Source of the DNA: Dyella sp. C11
GTDB lineage: Bacteria > Pseudomonadota > Gammaproteobacteria > Xanthomonadales > Rhodanobacteraceae
NCBI RefSeq assembly: GCF_003121485.1
Contig: NZ_QAVX01000016.1
Coordinates: 1-64,000, forward strand
Direction: 5' to 3'
DNA: 64,000 bases
In this document: positions 28,237 to 49,714 of the stretch, in pieces
How the letters are laid out: each line of letters opens with the position of its first letter
Numbering within the stretch: the stretch's first letter is position 1
The notes under the pieces: generated by a model
Databases searched by the model: none
What the model saw: the letters and a program-made list of their open reading frames with translations, nothing else
What the model was told of the DNA's origin: nothing
Made by a program: the position numbers and the translations under genes

Positions 28237-28561
28237 GGGCGAGACTCCTGCCAAAGGTGGGAGCAGGGTCTCGGCGCGGACGTGATGGTCACGCGCGATG
28301 AATGTTAAGAGTGGTTTTTACAGTCAGGGAGTCGCTGGCCACGCCGGGATGGGCAGCTGATGGGCTGAACGAATCGGTAAGGAGTGGGCAGCGAGCGGAA
28401 GCGTGCCGTGTGGTTGCCTCACTTCGCCCCGGCACCGCACTGATGCCGGCACGGGAAATAACCTGACATTCGCCGTTACTTGCTTTTGCTAACGTCGTTG
28501 CGTCACTCGCGATGTTCTTTCCCGTTCTTCGCAAGTGGCCATGGCAGCCATGCCATGAGGC
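28237..28561. other. Upstream region before the 28624 leader
   Basis: About 325 bases between the DUF2383 gene and the leader hairpin. It should hold promoters for the divergent DUF2383 gene and the 28624 gene. No gene or clear promoter pair can be assigned. Confidence 0.35.
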
Positions 28562-28623
28562 GCGGTCCGCAGGTGGTGACTCACCTGCGGACCGCTAACC
28601 ATCACCAACACACAGAGTTGATC
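28562..28623 (+). promoter_or_regulatory. Candidate structured leader RNA (14-bp hairpin) upstream of the 28624 gene
   Basis: Arms 28562-28575 (GCGGTCCGCAGGTG) and 28582-28595 are perfect reverse complements around a six-base loop. Directly after it come TAACCATCACCAAC and CAGAGTTGATC, then the ATG at 28624. At 49450-49513 (minus strand) a hairpin with a different stem sequence, a six-base loop and the matching tail T-ACCATCA-CAAC ... GAGTTGATC sits in front of a gene with a similar N-terminus. The agreement of structure without stem-sequence identity argues for a conserved cis-acting RNA element. Confidence 0.6.
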
Positions 28624-28968
28624 ATGGCTGTTCACGATCATACGGCACCCGCACGCCCGGACTTTCCCCGTGGTGACGCGTTCAGCGACCTGCCCGTCCG
28701 GCGTAACACGGCGCATGGCAGGCAGGCCCATTCGCTGCATCTTTCCAACCTTGACGACGTGGCGCTGGCGCTTTACTCCTTGGAGCGCCTGCGTTCCGCC
28801 AACGAGCGTTGCCGCAAGGCGCAGGCGTGGGGTTTTCCCGTTTCGCCGCCGGAATGGCCGTTTTCCGCGTTCTTTTCGGAAGGCCTGACCACGGCGATTC
28901 AATGCCTGAACCAGTACGCGCGGCATCTGGAATACGGAAAGGCAAGAACGCGCAAGCGGGACCTTTGA
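28624..28968 (+). CDS. Small hypothetical protein with leader-controlled start (114 aa)
   Basis: Soluble basic protein beginning MAVHDHTAPARPDF, followed by a low-complexity stretch and a helical region (ALALYSLERLRSANERCRKA). No domain recognised. The N-terminus and the leader are shared with the reading frame at 49132-49449, whose C-terminal part does not match. Start at ATG 28624, six bases after GAGTTGATC, part of the conserved leader motif. Confidence 0.6.
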   Translation: MAVHDHTAPARPDFPRGDAFSDLPVRRNTAHGRQAHSLHLSNLDDVALALYSLERLRSANERCRKAQAWGFPVSPPEWPFSAFFSEGLTTAIQCLNQYARHLEYGKARTRKRDL

Positions 28969-29105: not shown

Positions 29106-29408
29106 ATGTCCACGTCCATCCCACTTGTCCCGAACATGACCCCCGACGACGCCATACCGCTGCGCTCCCCGGGCCAGGTGCTGGTGCAGGATTTTGTGGA
29201 ACCGCTCGGCCTGCCCATGGCCTTCGTCGCCCGCACCACCGGCATATCGACCCGCCGTTTGCGCGACATGGTGAAAGGCCAGCACGTGGTAACGGCGCTT
29301 GAAGCGAAACGGCTCGCGGTGGCGTTCAACACCACGGCCTTCTACTGGATGGTGTTGCAGGCGCGTTGGTCGCTGGAAGGGCGAGACCGATTCGGCGGGG
29401 CGCACTGA
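29106..29408 (+). CDS. higA: HigA-family antitoxin-like XRE protein, orphan
   Basis: 100 residues with a helix-turn-helix of the HigA/VapI type: GQVLVQDFVEPLGLPMAFVA, then ARTTGISTRRLRDMVKGQHV and ALEAKRLAVAFNTTAFYWMV. Antitoxins of this group bind their own operator and neutralise HigB/RelE-like RNases. No HigB-like gene is found within 500 bp on either side, so this is an orphan antitoxin or a stand-alone regulator. It lies between the small gene at 28624 and the fluoride riboswitch. Confidence 0.8.
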   Translation: MSTSIPLVPNMTPDDAIPLRSPGQVLVQDFVEPLGLPMAFVARTTGISTRRLRDMVKGQHVVTALEAKRLAVAFNTTAFYWMVLQARWSLEGRDRFGGAH

Positions 29409-29615: not shown

Positions 29616-30920
29616 ATGAAACGCGTTTCTTTACCCGAACAGGCGACCATGCTGCCGCTGCTCGGACGCTGGCTGATGCTTTCAGCCGTGGTTGGCGGAT
29701 TGGTCGGCAGTGCCTCGGCACTTTTCCTCTGGACGCTCGACTGGGCGACCAACGTGCAGACCACGCACGAGGTCATGCTCGCCTTTCTTCCTGTAGCCGG
29801 CCTGGTGGTGGGTTGGGTGTATCACCGCATCGGCAAGGATGTCGAAGGCGGCAACAATCTTCTCATCGACGAAATTCACGATCCAAAGAAGATCGTGCCC
29901 AAGCGCATGGCCGTGCTGGTCTTCGCCGGCACCATCGTCACGCATCTGTTTGGTGGTTCCGCTGGTCGCGAGGGAACAGCCGTCCAGATGGGCGGTGCGT
30001 TGGCGGATCAGGTCACCCATCGCCTGAAGCTGGGCAAGGACGACCGGCGCATCCTGCTGATGGCCGGCATCAGTGCGGGCTTTGCATCGGTGTTCGGCAC
30101 GCCACTGGCGGGCGCCATCTTCGGGCTGGAAGTGCTGGCGATTGGCCGGTTGCGTTACGACGCGCTGTTGCCGTGCGTGCTGTCGGGGATCATGGCGGAT
30201 GAAGTCACCCGCCATTGGGGCATTCACCACACGGTGTACGCGATTCCGTTTGTGCCGCATCTCGACGTGGCCGGGCTTCTGTCCGTGGCCGTGGCGGGGA
30301 TCTGTTTCGGCATCGTGGGCATGTTGTTCGCCAACACCACGCATGCCTTGTCGGCGGCTTTCAAGAAAACCATTGCGTATCCACCGCTGCGTCTTTTCGT
30401 GGGTGGCGCCATCGTGGCGGTTGCGGCCTATGTGCTGCATGCGCGCGCTTATCTGGGATTGGGCATCCCGACCATCCAGGCGGCCTTTGATCACCCGCTG
30501 CCGGCTTACGACTTCGCCGGCAAGTTTGCCTTTACCACCATGACGCTGGCCTCGGGCTTCAAGGGTGGTGAGGTCACGCCGCTGTTCTACATGGGCGCCA
30601 CCCTGGGCAACGCGTTGGGCTACGTCTTGCCGCTGCCGTTTCCGGTATTGGCCGGCATGGGTTTCGTAGCGGTGTTTGCGGGCGCGGCGAACACGCCGTT
30701 GGCATCTACCGTGATGGCCATGGAACTGTTCGGGCCCGAGATGGGCGTGTATGCCGGTATGGCGTGCGTGATTGCGTACCTCTTTTCCGGACACACGGGC
30801 ATCTATCGCGCTCAGCGCGTGGGACACGCCAAACACGTTGCGTGGCCGGAAGGCATCCGCCTTGCCGACCTGCCTGCCCAGCGACGCGCCGAGCGCGCTT
30901 CCGCTTCCGCCGCCGACTGA
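29616..30920 (+). CDS. eriC: CLC(F)-type fluoride/proton antiporter
   Basis: Integral-membrane CLC transporter of 434 residues. Motifs: GGNNLLIDEIHDP (78-90, helix C-D region, in which the canonical Ser of GSGIP is not present), GSAGREGTAVQMG with gating Glu119 (the GREG-T version typical of the fluoride-specific branch rather than GREGP), and GGEVTPLFYMGATLGNALG near the second ion-coordination site. Fluoride-specific CLC(F) proteins export F- against a proton gradient and commonly sit behind a fluoride riboswitch, as here. ATG 29616 with GGGA spacing. Operon partner at 30936. Selectivity is inferred from motifs and the riboswitch. Confidence 0.9.
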   Translation: MKRVSLPEQATMLPLLGRWLMLSAVVGGLVGSASALFLWTLDWATNVQTTHEVMLAFLPVAGLVVGWVYHRIGKDVEGGNNLLIDEIHDPKKIVPKRMAVLVFAGTIVTHLFGGSAGREGTAVQMGGALADQVTHRLKLGKDDRRILLMAGISAGFASVFGTPLAGAIFGLEVLAIGRLRYDALLPCVLSGIMADEVTRHWGIHHTVYAIPFVPHLDVAGLLSVAVAGICFGIVGMLFANTTHALSAAFKKTIAYPPLRLFVGGAIVAVAAYVLHARAYLGLGIPTIQAAFDHPLPAYDFAGKFAFTTMTLASGFKGGEVTPLFYMGATLGNALGYVLPLPFPVLAGMGFVAVFAGAANTPLASTVMAMELFGPEMGVYAGMACVIAYLFSGHTGIYRAQRVGHAKHVAWPEGIRLADLPAQRRAERASASAAD

Positions 30921-32807: not shown

Positions 32808-35800
32808 ATGAACATCCGCCATGTCACGCCGGGCGCGCGCCCGGCTTCGCGCGTTGCTGCTTTCTTGCCGGTGGCCAGGGCACCTTCGGGTCTGTCCCGA
32901 ACGCTGCTGGCCAGTGCCTTGATGCTGGCGCTGTCGCCGGCGACGTGGGCGCAAACGTCAGGTGGGCAGGGTGGGCAAAATTACGCGCCGGGTGGCAACA
33001 GCGGCCAAGGTGGCGGCGCGATATCTTCAGGCATCCTGCAGCCGGGAGCCAACAGCAGCAATGGTGACGGCGGAAACGGGGGCAACGGCACGGTGCCTGG
33101 CGGTGCGGGCGGCAGTGTCAATTTGTATGTGACCAATTCCGACCTCGCAGTAGGGGGGACTCTCGTCGGTGATGACGGTAGCGTGGGTACCTCCACGGCT
33201 ATCTACGGTCACGCGGGTGGCGGTGGCGGTGGCGGCGCGGGTGTCTACATATCCGGCACGGTCAATCTCATCAACCAGTCGACCATTGGTGGAGGCAACG
33301 GTGGTGATGGCGGTGTCGTCGACGAGGGAACGACGGGTGGTGGCGGCGGCGGTGGCAATGGGGTCAGCGCGTACGACGTGACCATTCAGAACTACGGCAC
33401 GATCACGGGTGGCAATGGCGGCGCCGGCGGTTCGGGCACGTATTCGAGTGCCGGCAGCGGTGGCGGTGGCGGCAATGGCATTGCAGGGTCGAACCTGACC
33501 ATTATCAACAGCGGCACCATCAGCGGCGGTGCGGGTGGTGCTGGTGGTGTCGATAACGGAAACAGTGCGGGTAACGGCGCAGCGGGAACCAACGGCGACG
33601 CGATCCTGTTCACAGGTGGTATCAATACGCTCACGATGGCCGGGGGCTCGTTACTCAACGGCGCAGTGGAAGCCTTGCAGGGTGCTCTCGTCAGCATCAG
33701 CGGCACGGGTAGCGGCACAATTTTCAACAAGCTCACGACGGTGGGTGCCGGTCAATTTCTTTTTGGACCGATCGGCGTGGGCGCCGTTAACGACAACGCC
33801 GCCACCACGCTTTATGGCAACGTCATCACGCAGGGTGGTGGGCAGATCTACGGCAGCAGTGCCTCGCTGACGTTGGGCAGCAACGTTACGTTGAGCGACA
33901 CGAATGGCGGAGACATCATTTTCGACTCGCCGATAAACGGCGCACAGAATCTTGCCGTCAGCACAATGGGCAATGTGTCGTTTCAACAGAGCGCAGGAGC
34001 GACGACTGCGTTAACCGGTCTCGTCGTGCAAAGTGGGTCGGCTAGCTTCGCGGCTCCGCTGCAGGTGTCAGGGTCGTTGTCGATCAGCACAACGATCGGT
34101 AGCATTTCCCAAAGCGCTGCATGGAACGTCGGGGGCATGTTCAGCATCAATGCTGGCAGCAACGCCATTACCCTGACCAACGCGAACAACTCCTTCGCTT
34201 CCGGTATGTATCTTTACGGCAGCGACATCACGATCGCAGCCGCGAGTAACCTCTCGTTTGGCACAGTGGCCGCCTCGGGAACATTCGTGGCTAACGGCAC
34301 GGGGAACATGAGCGTTGGCGAAGTGTCCGCCGCGAAAGCCGATCTTTCCACGAGCGGCTCCATTCTTGTTACGGGTGACCTGCTTACCAGCCAGGGCACC
34401 ACGTTCAGCGCAACGTCGCTGCAGATCGGCAATGGCAGCACCTATGGTTCGATCACCGGCAATGTCGTCGACAACAGCACGCTGATCTGGAATCGCAGCA
34501 ACGACGTCAGCTATGGCGACGTCATTTCCGGCTCGGGCCAGGTGCTGAAACAAGGCGCCGGTGTGTTGACGCTGGATGGCAACAGCAGCGCATTCGGTGG
34601 CACGACGGACGTGCAGGCAGGCACGTTGATCGTGGGCAGCGTGTCAAACAACGGCGCCGCGCTGGGTGGCAACGTCAGCGTGGAAAGCGGTGCCACGCTG
34701 GGTGGCAATGGCGCCATCGGCGGCAGCGTGTCGCTGGCAAGCGGCAGCACGCTGTCTGCCGGTGCCGCGTCGCAGATCGGTACGCTCACCGTGAACGGTG
34801 ATCTCACCATCGATAGCGGCTCGACGCTGAACTTCGACTTCGGTGCGCCGGGACCGAACTTCAGTACGCCTGGTCAGAGCGACCACGTGGCCGTCAACGG
34901 CAACCTGTCGATTGGGCAGTCCACGCTCAACGTCAACAACCTCGGCAGCATGGGGCCCGGGTTGTACAACCTGTTCACCTGGGGCAACACGCTCAGCATC
35001 ACCGGTGGTGGCTTTGCGCCGCCTGCGGGCATGTCGTTGCAGGTGCTGACCATCGACAAGCAGATCAACCTGATCGATACGCAAAACGTGACCCTCAACG
35101 AATGGGATGCCAACGGTCTGGCCGGCCCGGGCTCCATGGGTGGCGGCAGCGGCACGTGGAGCGTCACCTCCGGTACGTGGTCCGACACCACGGGGCAGTA
35201 CATCGGACCCATGGCACCGCAGCCGGGCTTCGCCATCTTTGGCGGTGCGGCGGGCGTGGTGACGGTGGACGGAACCAACGGTGCGGTTTCGGCAACGGGC
35301 CTGCAGTTCGTGACCGATGGATATGTCCTCATCGGTGACTCGCTCGATCTGGTCGCGCAGAACAGTGTCGCTCCTGTCATACGCGTCAGCAGCGGTGCCA
35401 CGGCCGTTATCGACAACTCGCTCGATGGCGTCGCCGGCTTCAACAAGACCGACGGCGGCACCCTGGAGCTCAATGGCGTAAATATATACACGGGCAACAC
35501 CGTGCTGAGTGGCGGTGAGCTGTCCGTGTCGTCGGACCTCAATCTTGGAAGCGCCAGCAGCGCGCTGGATTTCGAAGGCGGCACGCTGCAGGTCACAGGG
35601 AATGTTTTTCACTCGACCAACCGCCAGATCATCTGGGGCAATGCCGGTGGTGGCTTCGATATTGCCGATGCCAGCAACGTGTTCACCGTATCGCAGAATT
35701 TGTCGGGTACGGGCGGCCTGTACAAAACCGGCGCAGGCACGTTGGTGTTGAGCGGCAACAACAGCTTTACCGGCGGAACCACCATTGCGCAGGGCACTTT

Positions 35801-38669
35801 GCAGGCGAACACGACAAGCCTTATGGGCGATGTCGTGGATAACGCCACGTTGTCGTTCGTGCAGGCGTCCGACGGTACGTTCAACGGCGCCATTTCCGGC
35901 AGCGGGCAACTGGTGAAGAGTGGCACCGGCACGTTGACCTTGGGCGGCGCCAATACGTACAGCGGCGGTACGCTCATTTCGCAGGGCGCGCTGCAAGGCA
36001 CCACGAGCAGCTTGCAAGGCGGCGTGACCGACAACGGCGTGTTGATCTTCGACCAGTCGGTTGATGGCGCGTTTGCTGGCGCGATATCGGGCACGGGCCA
36101 GCTCGTTAAAAATGGCACGGGCAACGTGACGTTGGCGCAGGGCAACAGCTACACCGGTGGCACGCTGATCAACAGCGGCACGCTCACCGGGGACACTGGC
36201 AGCCTGCAAGGCAACATCATCAACAACGCAACGATGGTGTTCGCGCAGAATGCCGATGGTGTGTCTGCTGGCACCATCTCCGGCACGGGTCAGCTCATCA
36301 AGAATGGCACGGGCGTGCTGTCACTCACGGGTGGCAACACCTACAGCGGCGGTACCACCATCAACGCCGGCACGCTGCAGGGTGATACCACCAGCTTGCA
36401 GGGCGACATGCTGGACAACGCCACACTCACGTTCGCGCAATCATCGAACGGCACGTTTGCCGGTGCGGTGTCGGGCACAGGCCAGTTGATCAAGTCGGGC
36501 ACAGGCACGCTGACGCTCAGCGGCGTCAACACCTATGGCGGAGGTACGCTCATCGCCGCTGGTGCGCTTCAAGGCACCACCAGCAGCGTGCAGGGCGCCG
36601 TCACGAACAACGCCGCGTTGATCTTCGATCAGGCGAGCGACGGCACTTTCGCCGGAGCAATATCCGGCACAGGTCAGCTTGTAAAGAATGGCGCGGGCAA
36701 CGTGACGTTGGCGCAGGCCAACAGCTACACCGGCGGCACGCTGATCAACGGTGGGACGCTCACGGGCGATGTCGGCAGTCTGCAAGGCAACATCACCAAC
36801 AACGCGACGGTGGTATTTGCACAGAACGTCGATGCCGCATTCAGCGGCGTCATTTCCGGGGCCGGCCAGCTCATCAAGAGCGGCAGCGGTGTGTTGTCGC
36901 TCACTGGCATCAACACGTACACCGGCGGCACCACCGTCAACGCCGGCACGTTGCAAGGTGACACGAGCAGCATCAACGGTGCCGTGGTCGACAACGCCAC
37001 GCTGGTATTCGCACAGCAGTCGAATGGCATTTTCAATGGCACGCTTGGCGGCAGCGGGCAACTGGTAAAGAACGGCAGCGGAACGCTGGTGCTCGATGGG
37101 GCCAACAGTTTCAGCGGCAACACCGAGGTGGCTGCCGGCAAGCTGGTCGTGGGTGATGACACCCACGCCGGTGCCTCGCTGGCCGGTACCGTGTCGGTCG
37201 ACGGTGGCGCCACGCTGGGCGGCATCGGCAGTATTGGCGGACTGGATCTCGCCGGCACGCTTACACCCGGCAATTCCATCGGCACGCTCAACGTGCTTGG
37301 CGACGCAACGTTCCGTCCGGGCTCTAGCTACCAGTTTGAAGTGGCACCCGACGGCAGCAGTGACCGTTTGGCTGCGACGGGTGCCGTGACCATCCAGGGT
37401 GGTTCGGCGCTGGCGCTGGCCAGCAATGGCAACTGGTCGCCCGTGACATCCATGCAGATCATCACGGCGGGTGGCGGCATCAGTGGCCAGTTCGACAGCA
37501 TCCAGTCGAATCTCGCGTTCCTCACGCCCAGCCTCAGCTATGGCGCGAACGCGGTAACGCTGCAGATGGAACGCAACGACATTCAATTCGCCGATGTTGC
37601 GCAGACGAAGAACCAGCGTGCCGTGGCTTCTTCCATCGACGCCTTGGGCATGGCCAGTCCGATCTACAGCGCCGTGGTCAGCCTGGACGCCGCGACGGCT
37701 CGCGCGGGCTTCGACGCGATGTCGGGCGAACAGTTTGCGAGCACGCGTTCCGCCCTGATCGACGACAGCCACTACGTACGCGATGCCATCGATCGCCATC
37801 TGCTTGGCCTGTCCAACGACGGCACGCAGGCAACCAACGCACAGGGTGTCACCGCCTGGACCAGCGCGTGGGGTCATTGGGGCAGCAGCGACAGCGACGG
37901 CAATGCGGCGCGCATGAATGCCGATGGCAGCGGCCTGCTGGTGGGCGCGGATCTGGGCGTGGGCAGCGACGCGCGCCTGGGTGCGGTGGTCGGGCACAGC
38001 CAGTTGACGACACGCGTGGATGATCGCGGCTCCGATGCACACGTCCTGGGCACGAACCTTGGTTTGTACGGCGATGTGTCGTGGGGAGCGTTTGCCTTGC
38101 GCGGTGGCGTGGCCTACGCGTGGCAGCAGGTGAACAGCCACCGCAACCTGGCGTTCGGCAACCTGACCGATGCGTTGAGCGATCGCTACGACGCCCATGT
38201 GGCACAGGGCTTCGTCGAAGGTGGCTATCGATTCCAGGTGACACCAGGCCAGCAGGTCGAGCCGTTCCTCAATCTCGCGCACGTGCAGGTGCAGACCGAT
38301 GCGAGTCGCGAGGCAAGTGGCATCGCAGCGTTGACCGTCGCGAGCCAGAGCGATGCGGTGAACATTGCCACGCTGGGCGTGCGCGACACTTGGTCGCTGG
38401 GACGTACCGGTGGTTTGAACGCGCACATCGGCATCGGCTGGCAGCAGGCCTGGGGCGACGTGACGCCGGTCAGCACCGTGCGCTTCACCAGCGGCAGCGA
38501 CAGCTTCGACATTGCCGGCACACCGGTTGCCCGGCACGCGGGTGTGATCGACGGCGGCCTGTCATTCGCCGTCGCGCGCAATGCGTTCGTTGACGCGAGC
38601 TATATCGGACGCTTTGGCGACGGCGCCAAGGATCAGGGCGCTCGATTGTCTCTGAATGTGCTTTGGTGA
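32808..38669 (+). CDS. Autotransporter (type Va) with repeat-rich passenger
   Basis: A 1953-residue secreted surface protein. Long signal region (cleaved after ATWA, about residue 48); a Gly/Asn/Ser-rich segment (about 50-260, GGNGG-type runs) that may form a flexible or ice-binding-like surface; a beta-helical passenger (about 270-1580) with many 'G-x-L-x-K-x-G-x-G-x-L-x-L' passenger-associated repeats; and a C-terminal autotransporter beta-barrel (about 1680-1953) that starts near VTAWTSAWGHWGSS and ends with alternating strand residues (RLSLNVLW). The barrel inserts in the outer membrane and exports the passenger. Neither a catalytic triad nor a clear adhesin domain is visible, so role (adhesion, biofilm) is uncertain. 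ATG with AGGGG. Confidence 0.9.
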   Translation: MNIRHVTPGARPASRVAAFLPVARAPSGLSRTLLASALMLALSPATWAQTSGGQGGQNYAPGGNSGQGGGAISSGILQPGANSSNGDGGNGGNGTVPGGAGGSVNLYVTNSDLAVGGTLVGDDGSVGTSTAIYGHAGGGGGGGAGVYISGTVNLINQSTIGGGNGGDGGVVDEGTTGGGGGGGNGVSAYDVTIQNYGTITGGNGGAGGSGTYSSAGSGGGGGNGIAGSNLTIINSGTISGGAGGAGGVDNGNSAGNGAAGTNGDAILFTGGINTLTMAGGSLLNGAVEALQGALVSISGTGSGTIFNKLTTVGAGQFLFGPIGVGAVNDNAATTLYGNVITQGGGQIYGSSASLTLGSNVTLSDTNGGDIIFDSPINGAQNLAVSTMGNVSFQQSAGATTALTGLVVQSGSASFAAPLQVSGSLSISTTIGSISQSAAWNVGGMFSINAGSNAITLTNANNSFASGMYLYGSDITIAAASNLSFGTVAASGTFVANGTGNMSVGEVSAAKADLSTSGSILVTGDLLTSQGTTFSATSLQIGNGSTYGSITGNVVDNSTLIWNRSNDVSYGDVISGSGQVLKQGAGVLTLDGNSSAFGGTTDVQAGTLIVGSVSNNGAALGGNVSVESGATLGGNGAIGGSVSLASGSTLSAGAASQIGTLTVNGDLTIDSGSTLNFDFGAPGPNFSTPGQSDHVAVNGNLSIGQSTLNVNNLGSMGPGLYNLFTWGNTLSITGGGFAPPAGMSLQVLTIDKQINLIDTQNVTLNEWDANGLAGPGSMGGGSGTWSVTSGTWSDTTGQYIGPMAPQPGFAIFGGAAGVVTVDGTNGAVSATGLQFVTDGYVLIGDSLDLVAQNSVAPVIRVSSGATAVIDNSLDGVAGFNKTDGGTLELNGVNIYTGNTVLSGGELSVSSDLNLGSASSALDFEGGTLQVTGNVFHSTNRQIIWGNAGGGFDIADASNVFTVSQNLSGTGGLYKTGAGTLVLSGNNSFTGGTTIAQGTLQANTTSLMGDVVDNATLSFVQASDGTFNGAISGSGQLVKSGTGTLTLGGANTYSGGTLISQGALQGTTSSLQGGVTDNGVLIFDQSVDGAFAGAISGTGQLVKNGTGNVTLAQGNSYTGGTLINSGTLTGDTGSLQGNIINNATMVFAQNADGVSAGTISGTGQLIKNGTGVLSLTGGNTYSGGTTINAGTLQGDTTSLQGDMLDNATLTFAQSSNGTFAGAVSGTGQLIKSGTGTLTLSGVNTYGGGTLIAAGALQGTTSSVQGAVTNNAALIFDQASDGTFAGAISGTGQLVKNGAGNVTLAQANSYTGGTLINGGTLTGDVGSLQGNITNNATVVFAQNVDAAFSGVISGAGQLIKSGSGVLSLTGINTYTGGTTVNAGTLQGDTSSINGAVVDNATLVFAQQSNGIFNGTLGGSGQLVKNGSGTLVLDGANSFSGNTEVAAGKLVVGDDTHAGASLAGTVSVDGGATLGGIGSIGGLDLAGTLTPGNSIGTLNVLGDATFRPGSSYQFEVAPDGSSDRLAATGAVTIQGGSALALASNGNWSPVTSMQIITAGGGISGQFDSIQSNLAFLTPSLSYGANAVTLQMERNDIQFADVAQTKNQRAVASSIDALGMASPIYSAVVSLDAATARAGFDAMSGEQFASTRSALIDDSHYVRDAIDRHLLGLSNDGTQATNAQGVTAWTSAWGHWGSSDSDGNAARMNADGSGLLVGADLGVGSDARLGAVVGHSQLTTRVDDRGSDAHVLGTNLGLYGDVSWGAFALRGGVAYAWQQVNSHRNLAFGNLTDALSDRYDAHVAQGFVEGGYRFQVTPGQQVEPFLNLAHVQVQTDASREASGIAALTVASQSDAVNIATLGVRDTWSLGRTGGLNAHIGIGWQQAWGDVTPVSTVRFTSGSDSFDIAGTPVARHAGVIDGGLSFAVARNAFVDASYIGRFGDGAKDQGARLSLNVLW
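35700..37130 (+). repeat. Tandem passenger repeats, period 192 bp, with a 3-unit superperiod
   Basis: The protein motif G-(T/S)-G-(Q/G)-L-x-K-x-G-x-G recurs about every 64 residues from near residue 968 to 1415 (eight copies, plus an isolated earlier one near 575). Neighbouring copies fall into classes; the NVTLAQ/VLSLTG/TLxL order recurs, and GCAACGTGACGTTGGCGCAG at 36121 returns at 36697, exactly 576 bp (three units) later. This indicates a recent duplication of a three-repeat block inside the gene. Confidence 0.85.
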
Positions 38670-48815: not shown

Positions 48816-49131
48816 GACCTCACCTGGATAAGGCGCAGTGGCCGCATGTTGGCTTTCAGGAAGTGAAAATCCGGCAAACGGCCCAGGGTTCTTTCGTTAG
48901 CTGGCTGAATTCATCTTGCGTCGAAAGGAAGGCCCTGTGGAATCCATGGGCCGGAGGCAACATTCCTGATGCTTTCATGCACCGCGAATACGCTGGTGAC
49001 CGTGGCAGGAAGCGCGGCATCCTGCGCCTGGTTGCCCATGCAGCATGTTGCTGCGGTCTCGCTTCGCTGGGTGTGGCGCACAGCATGCAACACGGCGCGC
49101 CACAGGGGCGATCAACGGGCTCGCAACAACC

Positions 49132-49449
49132 TTACGCCAGCCTGCGGCTGGCTGCTTCCTCGTACCGATAACGCACTGCGCGGTTCGCGCCAGCCGAGAC
49201 AGCCGGCATGGCACGCATCGATGATTCGCCCGTCCCTGCATGCCGTCCCTGATGTGTTGCATGCAGAGTCACACGTCGCCGTCCGTGGACAACGTGGTTG
49301 TCACCTAAGCGGGTCGAAAGTGCGGGTGGCGCGGTGCCGCGCGGGCGCCGTGTCAGGTTCGCCCTATGCGAACTGTCGGGGATGAAAGCGAGGTAGTCGT
49401 CTTGCAGGAAAGACGCGCGTGCGCGTGCCGTATGATCCGGCGTAGCCAT
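49132..49449 (-). pseudogene. Reading frame with N-terminus like the 28624 protein, probable remnant
   Basis: Starts MATPDHTARARASFLQDD..., close to MAVHDHTAPARPDF at 28624, and lies behind the matching leader. Beyond about 15 residues the sequence no longer matches and becomes Arg/Ala/His-rich. The start ATG at 49449 is preceded by GGAGTTGATC. It may be a decayed paralogue or a young gene that shares only the regulatory leader. Confidence 0.4.
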
Positions 49450-49513
49450 GATCAACTCCAAGGTAGTTGTTGATGGTCAGCGGGTCGTATGGGCTCCTAC
49501 CCATGCGACCCGC
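49450..49513 (-). promoter_or_regulatory. Candidate structured leader RNA, second copy
   Basis: On the minus strand GCGGGTCGCATGGG (49513-49500) and CCCATACGACCCGC (49493-49480) form a 14-base stem with one C-A mismatch and a six-base loop, followed by TGACCATCAACAAC and GGAGTTGATC before the ATG at 49449. Compare 28562-28623: same stem length, loop length and downstream motif, different stem sequence. Confidence 0.6.
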
Positions 49514-49714
49514 GCTACTCACAGCATTGCTGCTGGCCGCTCGCAAACCCCGTCCGAAGACCCCGCGAGCAACACGACGACCGTATCAAAGGTCGCTCAC
49601 CCGGGATGTAGGGATTCATCGCCAAGCCGCGCGATCCGCTGGCGTGTTGGGCGGTAGTGCATGGCGTGTGGTTCGGTGCGTGCGTCGGTGAAGCGGCAGG
49701 CACCTGGCGCAGGA

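Follow-up and report, generated by a model that had tools for sequence, protein, structure and literature searches.

The hairpin module and its genes

The window, a 64,000-nt stretch of the Dyella sp. C11 genome, carries two copies of a hairpin module, each in front of a small open reading frame. In copy 1, a perfect 14-bp inverted repeat (28562-28575 / 28582-28595, 6-nt spacer) is followed by CTAACCATCACCAAC, then by GAGTTGATC and then by the ATG at 28624. Copy 2 has the same layout on the minus strand, with the A of its ATG at 49449. On this gene strand its stem forms 13 of 14 pairs; the odd pair, C-A there, is G-U on the opposite strand, where all 14 pairs form. The original prediction had described a perfect 14-bp stem with a 6-nt loop and 13 of 14 pairs in the second leader, and inverted-repeat and fold checks confirmed this. 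With zero mismatches, CCATCAMCAAC and GAGTTGATCATG each occur only at the two loci within the window, and both gene-strand leaders out-folded 200 of 200 shuffles (z -4.44 for copy 1, -4.01 for copy 2). Genome-wide, CATCAMCAACN{0,25}GTTGATCATG occurs 8 times vs. 0 for a backwards control, and a covariance model of the gene strand, R1, retrieves 12 full-length copies from the same genome.

The first gene of copy 1 (ORF1, 28624..28968, plus strand) encodes a 114-aa protein of a family with the signature MAxxDHT... No Pfam family at E 0.01 matched any of 47 ORF1 members, and searches of NCBIfam with four representatives and of PHROGs with three gave no match at a meaningful score. The predicted structure has a disordered start and two helices (residues 43-68 and 82-112; pLDDT 71.9). 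A tentative likeness between ORF1 and the DUF3077 or DUF6124 proteins of Pseudomonas was entertained but not established. ORF2 (29106..29408, plus strand), 137 nt 3′ of ORF1, encodes a HigA-family antitoxin-like protein (TIGR02607, 55.2 bits vs. a cut-off of 47.7). Further downstream, the sole Rfam leader match in the window is a fluoride riboswitch (RF01734, 29471-29537, 51 bits) preceding a CLC-type channel gene (29616-30920), and a 1953-aa, autotransporter-like ORF with passenger-associated transport repeats (PATR) occupies 32808-38669.

The second genes were surveyed in a set of 94 Dyella copies, in which copies without a difference across 60 nt to either side count once and one copy, L032, was left out for having too little upstream DNA. 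By motif search within 900 nt, where copies near a locus end cannot score, a HigA-like gene follows 41 of the 94 copies and a different small second gene follows 17; each of the 26 HigA-like proteins scanned, out of the 41, matched TIGR02607. No HigA-like gene was seen downstream of copy 2. The HigA partner, together with a gene order and gene sizes that we take to resemble those of higBA, would suit a type II toxin-antitoxin system with ORF1 as a HigB-like toxin, ORF2 as its antitoxin and the RNA as a secondary component. Although this reading is compatible with the one we prefer, namely an antisense RNA acting on ORF1, we consider it unlikely: 47 ORF1 members are without a Pfam match, the second gene differs in the 17 copies, and the predicted all-helical fold, a helical hairpin at moderate confidence, is unlike that of RelE/HigB. 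The ORF1 proteins tried matched no RelE/HigB family, their best hit being a RelB-antitoxin model at E 0.099, far under its cut-off.

A separate class of copies has a shorter first gene. In 20 Dyella copies the first ORF is exactly 33 codons long, as it also is at four loci of another genus (L161, L172, L179, and L186), and a small gene of the GE[PA]W family (A2) lies about 235 nt downstream in 17 of the 20. A common family for ORF1 and the GEPW protein was rejected, profile comparison giving a probability of 0.3%.

ORF1 of copy 2 (49132..49449, minus strand, 105 codons) shows no clear sign of protein constraint, and the same holds for the second type of copy, to which it belongs. Among five copies from this genome, differences at codon position 2 equalled or exceeded those at position 3 in 8 of 10 pairs, the other two pairs standing at 6 vs. 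7 and 5 vs. 7. Protein constraint is seen in 12 disjoint within-genome pairs of paralogues with the most similar ORF1s of equal length, drawn from five named Dyella genomes, none of them the window's genome: third codon positions differ at 181 of 1260 sites (14.4%) vs. 210 of 2520 (8.3%) for first and second positions. Copy 2 also sits in a dispersed repeat (about 49067-49698), and a short GC-rich inverted repeat, recognized by eye, adjoins the common end of its matches.

Strand of the conserved structures

Alignment of the 94 copies gave a constant order of a promoter-like stretch, three hairpins (P1, P2, and P3), CCATCAMCAAC, a hypervariable stretch, GAGTTGATC and the ATG. P3 is the stem of the original prediction; P1 and P2, two hairpins further upstream (28502..28539 and 28540..28557 at copy 1, plus strand), were absent from that account. 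Upstream of this sense leader, CTGACA ... TTTGCTA (28463..28491, plus strand) falls in conserved columns of the 94-copy alignment and may be a promoter; a sigma-70 consensus scan of 28380-28760, done for copy 1 only, reported a promoter on neither strand. In some copies of the 33-codon class (L012, L019, L046, and L070), an inverted GTCTGTA ... TACAGAC pair about 35 nt apart lies at the promoter-like stretch, 5′ of the module, a possible operator.

We compared the strands by the kind of imperfect pair that each helix tolerates, using contiguous helices placed by the consensus fold and filled in ungapped across 43 non-redundant copies (A4, those of the 94 that are <88% alike). On the gene strand, the cells of P1 comprise 327 Watson-Crick, 32 G-U, 6 A-C and 14 other combinations, and those of P2 comprise 250, 32, 2 and 15, so that the two pooled show 64 G-U vs. 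8 A-C. P3 shows the reverse, with 512 Watson-Crick, 1 G-U, 68 A-C and 21 other; the copies are related, and the cells of these counts are not independent. Since an A-C on the gene strand is a G-U on the opposite strand, P1 and P2 appear to be maintained as folds of the mRNA, and P3 as a fold of the opposite strand, which argues that P3 is part of a SymR-like antisense RNA and not primarily an mRNA hairpin.

Folding energies agree in direction, the minimum being -46.8 kcal/mol (z -8.1) for the antisense vs. -37.8 (z -5.4) for the sense strand at copy 1, and -41.5 (z -6.1) vs. -33.7 (z -4.3) at copy 2. In an antisense-strand alignment of 62 sequences (A6), 96.1% of cells in the consensus helices are paired vs. 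83.9% after shuffling and 34-42% when slid, both-sided changes occur at 17 of 23 pairs, and the structure beats 500 of 500 shuffles on every measure. These 62 sequences came from the pattern search (24) and from matches to the gene-strand model R1 (38), an origin that may bias the set towards fixed or paired columns. Covariation over the aligned copies bears out the expectation that the stem would change while its pairing is kept.

The original prediction had placed this structure in a cis-regulatory leader RNA, with translational control as a plausible role. Control of translation initiation is still the likeliest role, whereas the evolution of the stem itself is that of an opposite-strand hairpin and not primarily that of an mRNA leader. 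A purely sense-strand leader, in which the stem and a pairing of CCAUCAMCAAC with GUUGAUCAUGG act in the mRNA, for example as an AUG-hiding thermometer or a protein-binding leader, could draw on P1 and P2, which are sense-strand hairpins, and on a weak sense hairpin able to pair the AUG. We regard it as improbable, because the G-U pairs of P3 are kept only on the opposite strand, the antisense fold exceeds the sense fold in stability by 9.0 (copy 1) and 7.8 kcal/mol (copy 2), and pair 8-37 of A6 is an antisense U-G, hence a sense A-C, in 28 of 62 sequences. A sense hairpin hiding the AUG was our initial idea; it was dropped on the result of the strand comparison, and the invariance of the AUG region in A4 is a product of the search pattern, which forces it.

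A predicted SymR-like antisense RNA and its promoter

The hairpin looks like part of a small predicted antisense RNA, 71-73 nt long, that covers the ribosome-binding site and the AUG. At copy 1 the predicted RNA (28559..28629, minus strand) is 71 nt long with two hairpins and matches the Rfam symR model at 42.7 bits (E 7.4e-7); at copy 2 (49444..49516, plus strand) it is 73 nt long and scores 40.0 bits (E 1.6e-6). Its 3′ hairpin at copy 1 is P3 (28562..28595, minus strand), the 14-bp inverted repeat, which retains G-U pairs on the minus strand. The remaining part (28597..28629, minus strand), delimited by the fold, carries a hypervariable loop (variable columns 18-25), and its helix, helix 2 of A6, has both-sided changes in 4 of 4 pairs. 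At neither window copy is P3 followed by a run of T on the antisense strand.

Homology to SymR is supported from both directions. An antisense-strand covariance model, R2, built from the 62 sequences, which come from Dyella and from further genera in its order and include no SymR, matches copy 1 at 28560-28631 (minus strand, 73.6 bits) and copy 2 at 49442-49515 (plus strand, 83.9 bits). The same model finds the annotated E. coli K-12 SymR, matching 1234-1311 of L244, a 2-kb stretch, where the annotation gives 1236-1312 (44.9 bits, E 1.8e-11 for the search of that stretch). In the opposite direction, the Rfam symR model (RF01809) scores both window copies below its gathering score of 61, the level for membership in the family, and exceeds it with 63.1 bits at one locus (L159, genome G028); over 61 genomes it gave matches at E 0.001 in 20, that genome being the only one above the gathering score, and in a control of 14 genomes it matched E. 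coli only.

In E. coli, SymR is described as repressing symE translation, as having its promoter within the symE ORF and as active in trans (PMC1891008), and papers on it regard it as the antisense partner of symE, in E. coli and its close relatives (PMC1891008, PMC4147584). Kawano and colleagues report that two silent -10 changes inside symE abolished SymR (PMC1891008). A candidate promoter of the same kind is present in the Dyella loci. On the antisense strand, a putative -10 box TATGAT lies at 28637..28642 (minus strand) of copy 1, within ORF1 codons 5-7, and at 49431..49436 (plus strand) of copy 2, assigned there from sequence and the rule of position in the ORF; a conserved GATCAT within ORF1 contains the predicted box, and E. 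coli symE has ATTCTA at the -10 offset from its ATG. We found no clear -35 box.

An antisense-strand TAnnnT occupies ORF1 positions 14-19 in 93 of 93 Dyella copies (one of the 94 was too short; background 0.0%). At the same ORF positions it occurs in 31 of 32 copies belonging to genera of the order other than Dyella (background 0.3%), a set found with R1, whose reach includes these positions, and in 23 of 33 matches from the class and phylum, with 7 more at 13-18 (background 0.9%), a set found with R2, whose reach ends short of them. The hexamer itself varies with lineage (TATGAT, TAGAAT, TACAAT, TACTAT, TAAGAT), showing that what is conserved is not a fixed peptide. By comparison and prediction, the loci thus share with SymR a two-hairpin antisense RNA over the ribosome-binding site and AUG, a TAnnnT at equal offset inside the ORF, and covariance models that detect each other. 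They differ in that ORF1 is not SymE, being instead a nameless small family of predicted helical proteins, in having about a dozen paralogues per Dyella genome, and in the additional sense hairpins P1 and P2. SymE (PF08845), the sense product of a SymE/SymR type I toxin-antitoxin system, was absent from the window's genome.

The promoter data also bear on whether the module is a selfish dispersed repeat, in other words a non-autonomous mobile element that uses its hairpins for transposition and to which the gene is incidental. The 49449 copy matches seven other copies in its genome over 188-634 bp, and five of the seven matches are at least 521 bp long and end within about 20 bp of one downstream point, as such an element might. 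It is nevertheless the least probable of the alternatives: the G-U strand bias and the conserved -10 box imply a transcribed RNA, the module stands at a constant distance from the ATG of genes that are unrelated to one another, and ORF1 is under protein constraint in the 12 paralogue pairs.

Two other antisense families bear some likeness to the module. PtaRNA1 (RF01811), a plasmid-transferred antisense RNA, is likewise a two-hairpin family, and its model scores 40.9 bits on the minus strand of L159, under the gathering score of 47; it had zero matches in the window's genome at E 0.001 and matched 2 of 143 class genomes at that threshold, neither above the cut-off. The R1162-like plasmid antisense region (RF00043) resembles the gene-strand layout hairpin-CUAACCAccAac-SD-AUGGCU, and its scores of 31.0 (copy 1) and 38.3 bits (copy 2) stay under the gathering score of 55, so that neither family takes in the window copies. 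The R1162-like antisense region governs a plasmid replication gene. The view that the hairpin matches no known riboswitch held: no riboswitch or other known Rfam leader reached the gathering score over it, and the best near-misses were antisense families (symR, R1162, and PtaRNA1).

Loop divergence and distribution of the module

Variability over 91 Dyella copies is highest in columns of the two antisense loops and next to them. The search pattern behind most copies fixed parts of the 5′ hairpin and left the loops free to vary, and the invariance of that hairpin is therefore not evidence. In the 12 paralogue pairs, structure-defined antisense loops differ at 76 of 160 sites (47.5%), compared with 17 of 552 in stems (3.1%) and 14.4% of ORF1 third codon positions, an excess with a Fisher p of 4e-20. 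The most variable loop columns taken alone differ at 61 of 96 sites, and the P1 loop, outside the antisense RNA, at 60 of 249.

None of 381 within-genome pairs shares both loops (loop 1 is common to 4 pairs and loop 2 to 2), and neither does any of 3714 between-genome pairs. At 0-3 non-loop differences, mean loop differences were 3.92 and 3.39 within genomes and 4.04 and 3.11 between genomes. The excess is as expected if each RNA has to recognise its own mRNA; gene conversion of ORF1 and stems that exempted the loops would give an identical picture. We infer insulation within the cell from these data, and because loops differ as much between genomes, it is not separated here from generally fast loop change. 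Dyella thus carries many copies of the predicted SymR-like RNA with very different putative recognition loops. Among the titles and abstracts listed in literature searches, none concerns the Dyella module or its loop divergence.

Very probably, then, each locus is a sense/antisense pair in which a SymR-homologous RNA blocks ORF1 translation and the loops give specificity for its own mRNA. The mRNA would comprise the structured leader with P1 and P2, the small protein ORF1 and often a HigA-family gene. From a predicted promoter on the opposite strand, in ORF1 codons 5-7, a 71-73-nt SymR homologue with two stable hairpins would be transcribed, fully complementary to the ribosome-binding site, the AUG and the region upstream. 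Its loops would initiate pairing, and the resulting duplex would bar the ribosome from the mRNA; translation repression is the likely function, by homology and layout. With about a dozen similar copies per genome, and given that SymR acts in trans, divergence of the loops would let each antisense RNA recognise its own mRNA. Sequence comparison shows the strand, the two hairpins, the conserved -10 box, the kinship with SymR and the extra divergence of the loops, whereas transcription, translational repression, loop-based specificity and any toxic effect of ORF1 are inferred.

The original prediction was staked on the pattern recurring at other loci and in other genomes, and it does so. Among 101 sampled genomes, including the window's own, 15 genomes from a single genus carry the exact pattern, and R1 finds matches in 31, from 11 of 51 genera, per-genome counts including some partial palindromic matches. 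A similar pattern is present in at least 80 stretches of named genomes, all titled Dyella among the matches listed. At E <= 1e-4, and with the window's genome counted in each sample, R2 matches 30 of 274 genomes sampled from the class and 21 of 249 sampled from the phylum, 11 of the 21 lying outside the class.

Distant loci were read in all 29 class genomes and in 13 of 20 phylum genomes with an R2 match, the window's genome excluded; of the other phylum genomes, one (G185) was already in the class set and six were without a locus. The rule for start codons gave one at 33 of these 42 loci (9 were dropped), and 29 of the 33 have an ORF of at least 40 aa. Pfam identified 6 of the 29 as SymE and 1 as ArdC, and it found two helix-turn-helix families, each in 1 protein, leaving 20 without a Pfam match if the family matches fall on different proteins. 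From 35 next ORFs listed, 4 overlapping ones were dropped, and a few of the 31 scanned are of toxin-antitoxin type (HicA, HicB, RelE, Gp49-like, and HTH).

An architecture of SymR type is thus predicted across Pseudomonadota, before genes that are mostly not symE, and many small genes of unknown function thereby acquire a predicted regulator and may play a part in toxin-antitoxin systems. We lean towards a broader proposal, in which SymR represents a single branch of an ancient, widespread antisense off-switch that plugs in before many genes unrelated to one another, most of them without a known family. Dyella would run a dozen or so such pairs in parallel per genome, cross-reaction being prevented by loops under diversifying selection; these would be antisense regulators that are naturally orthogonal and that perhaps guard new small toxins. 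Its paralogues offer a natural test, approachable by loop swaps, of how many antisense pairs coexist per cell and which nucleotides confer specificity.

Two of the distant antisense modules lie next to genes of other kinds. One (L218) is upstream of an ArdC-type antirestriction gene, and another (L256) is upstream of a small gene that, by eye, adjoins a zinc-finger primase-like gene.
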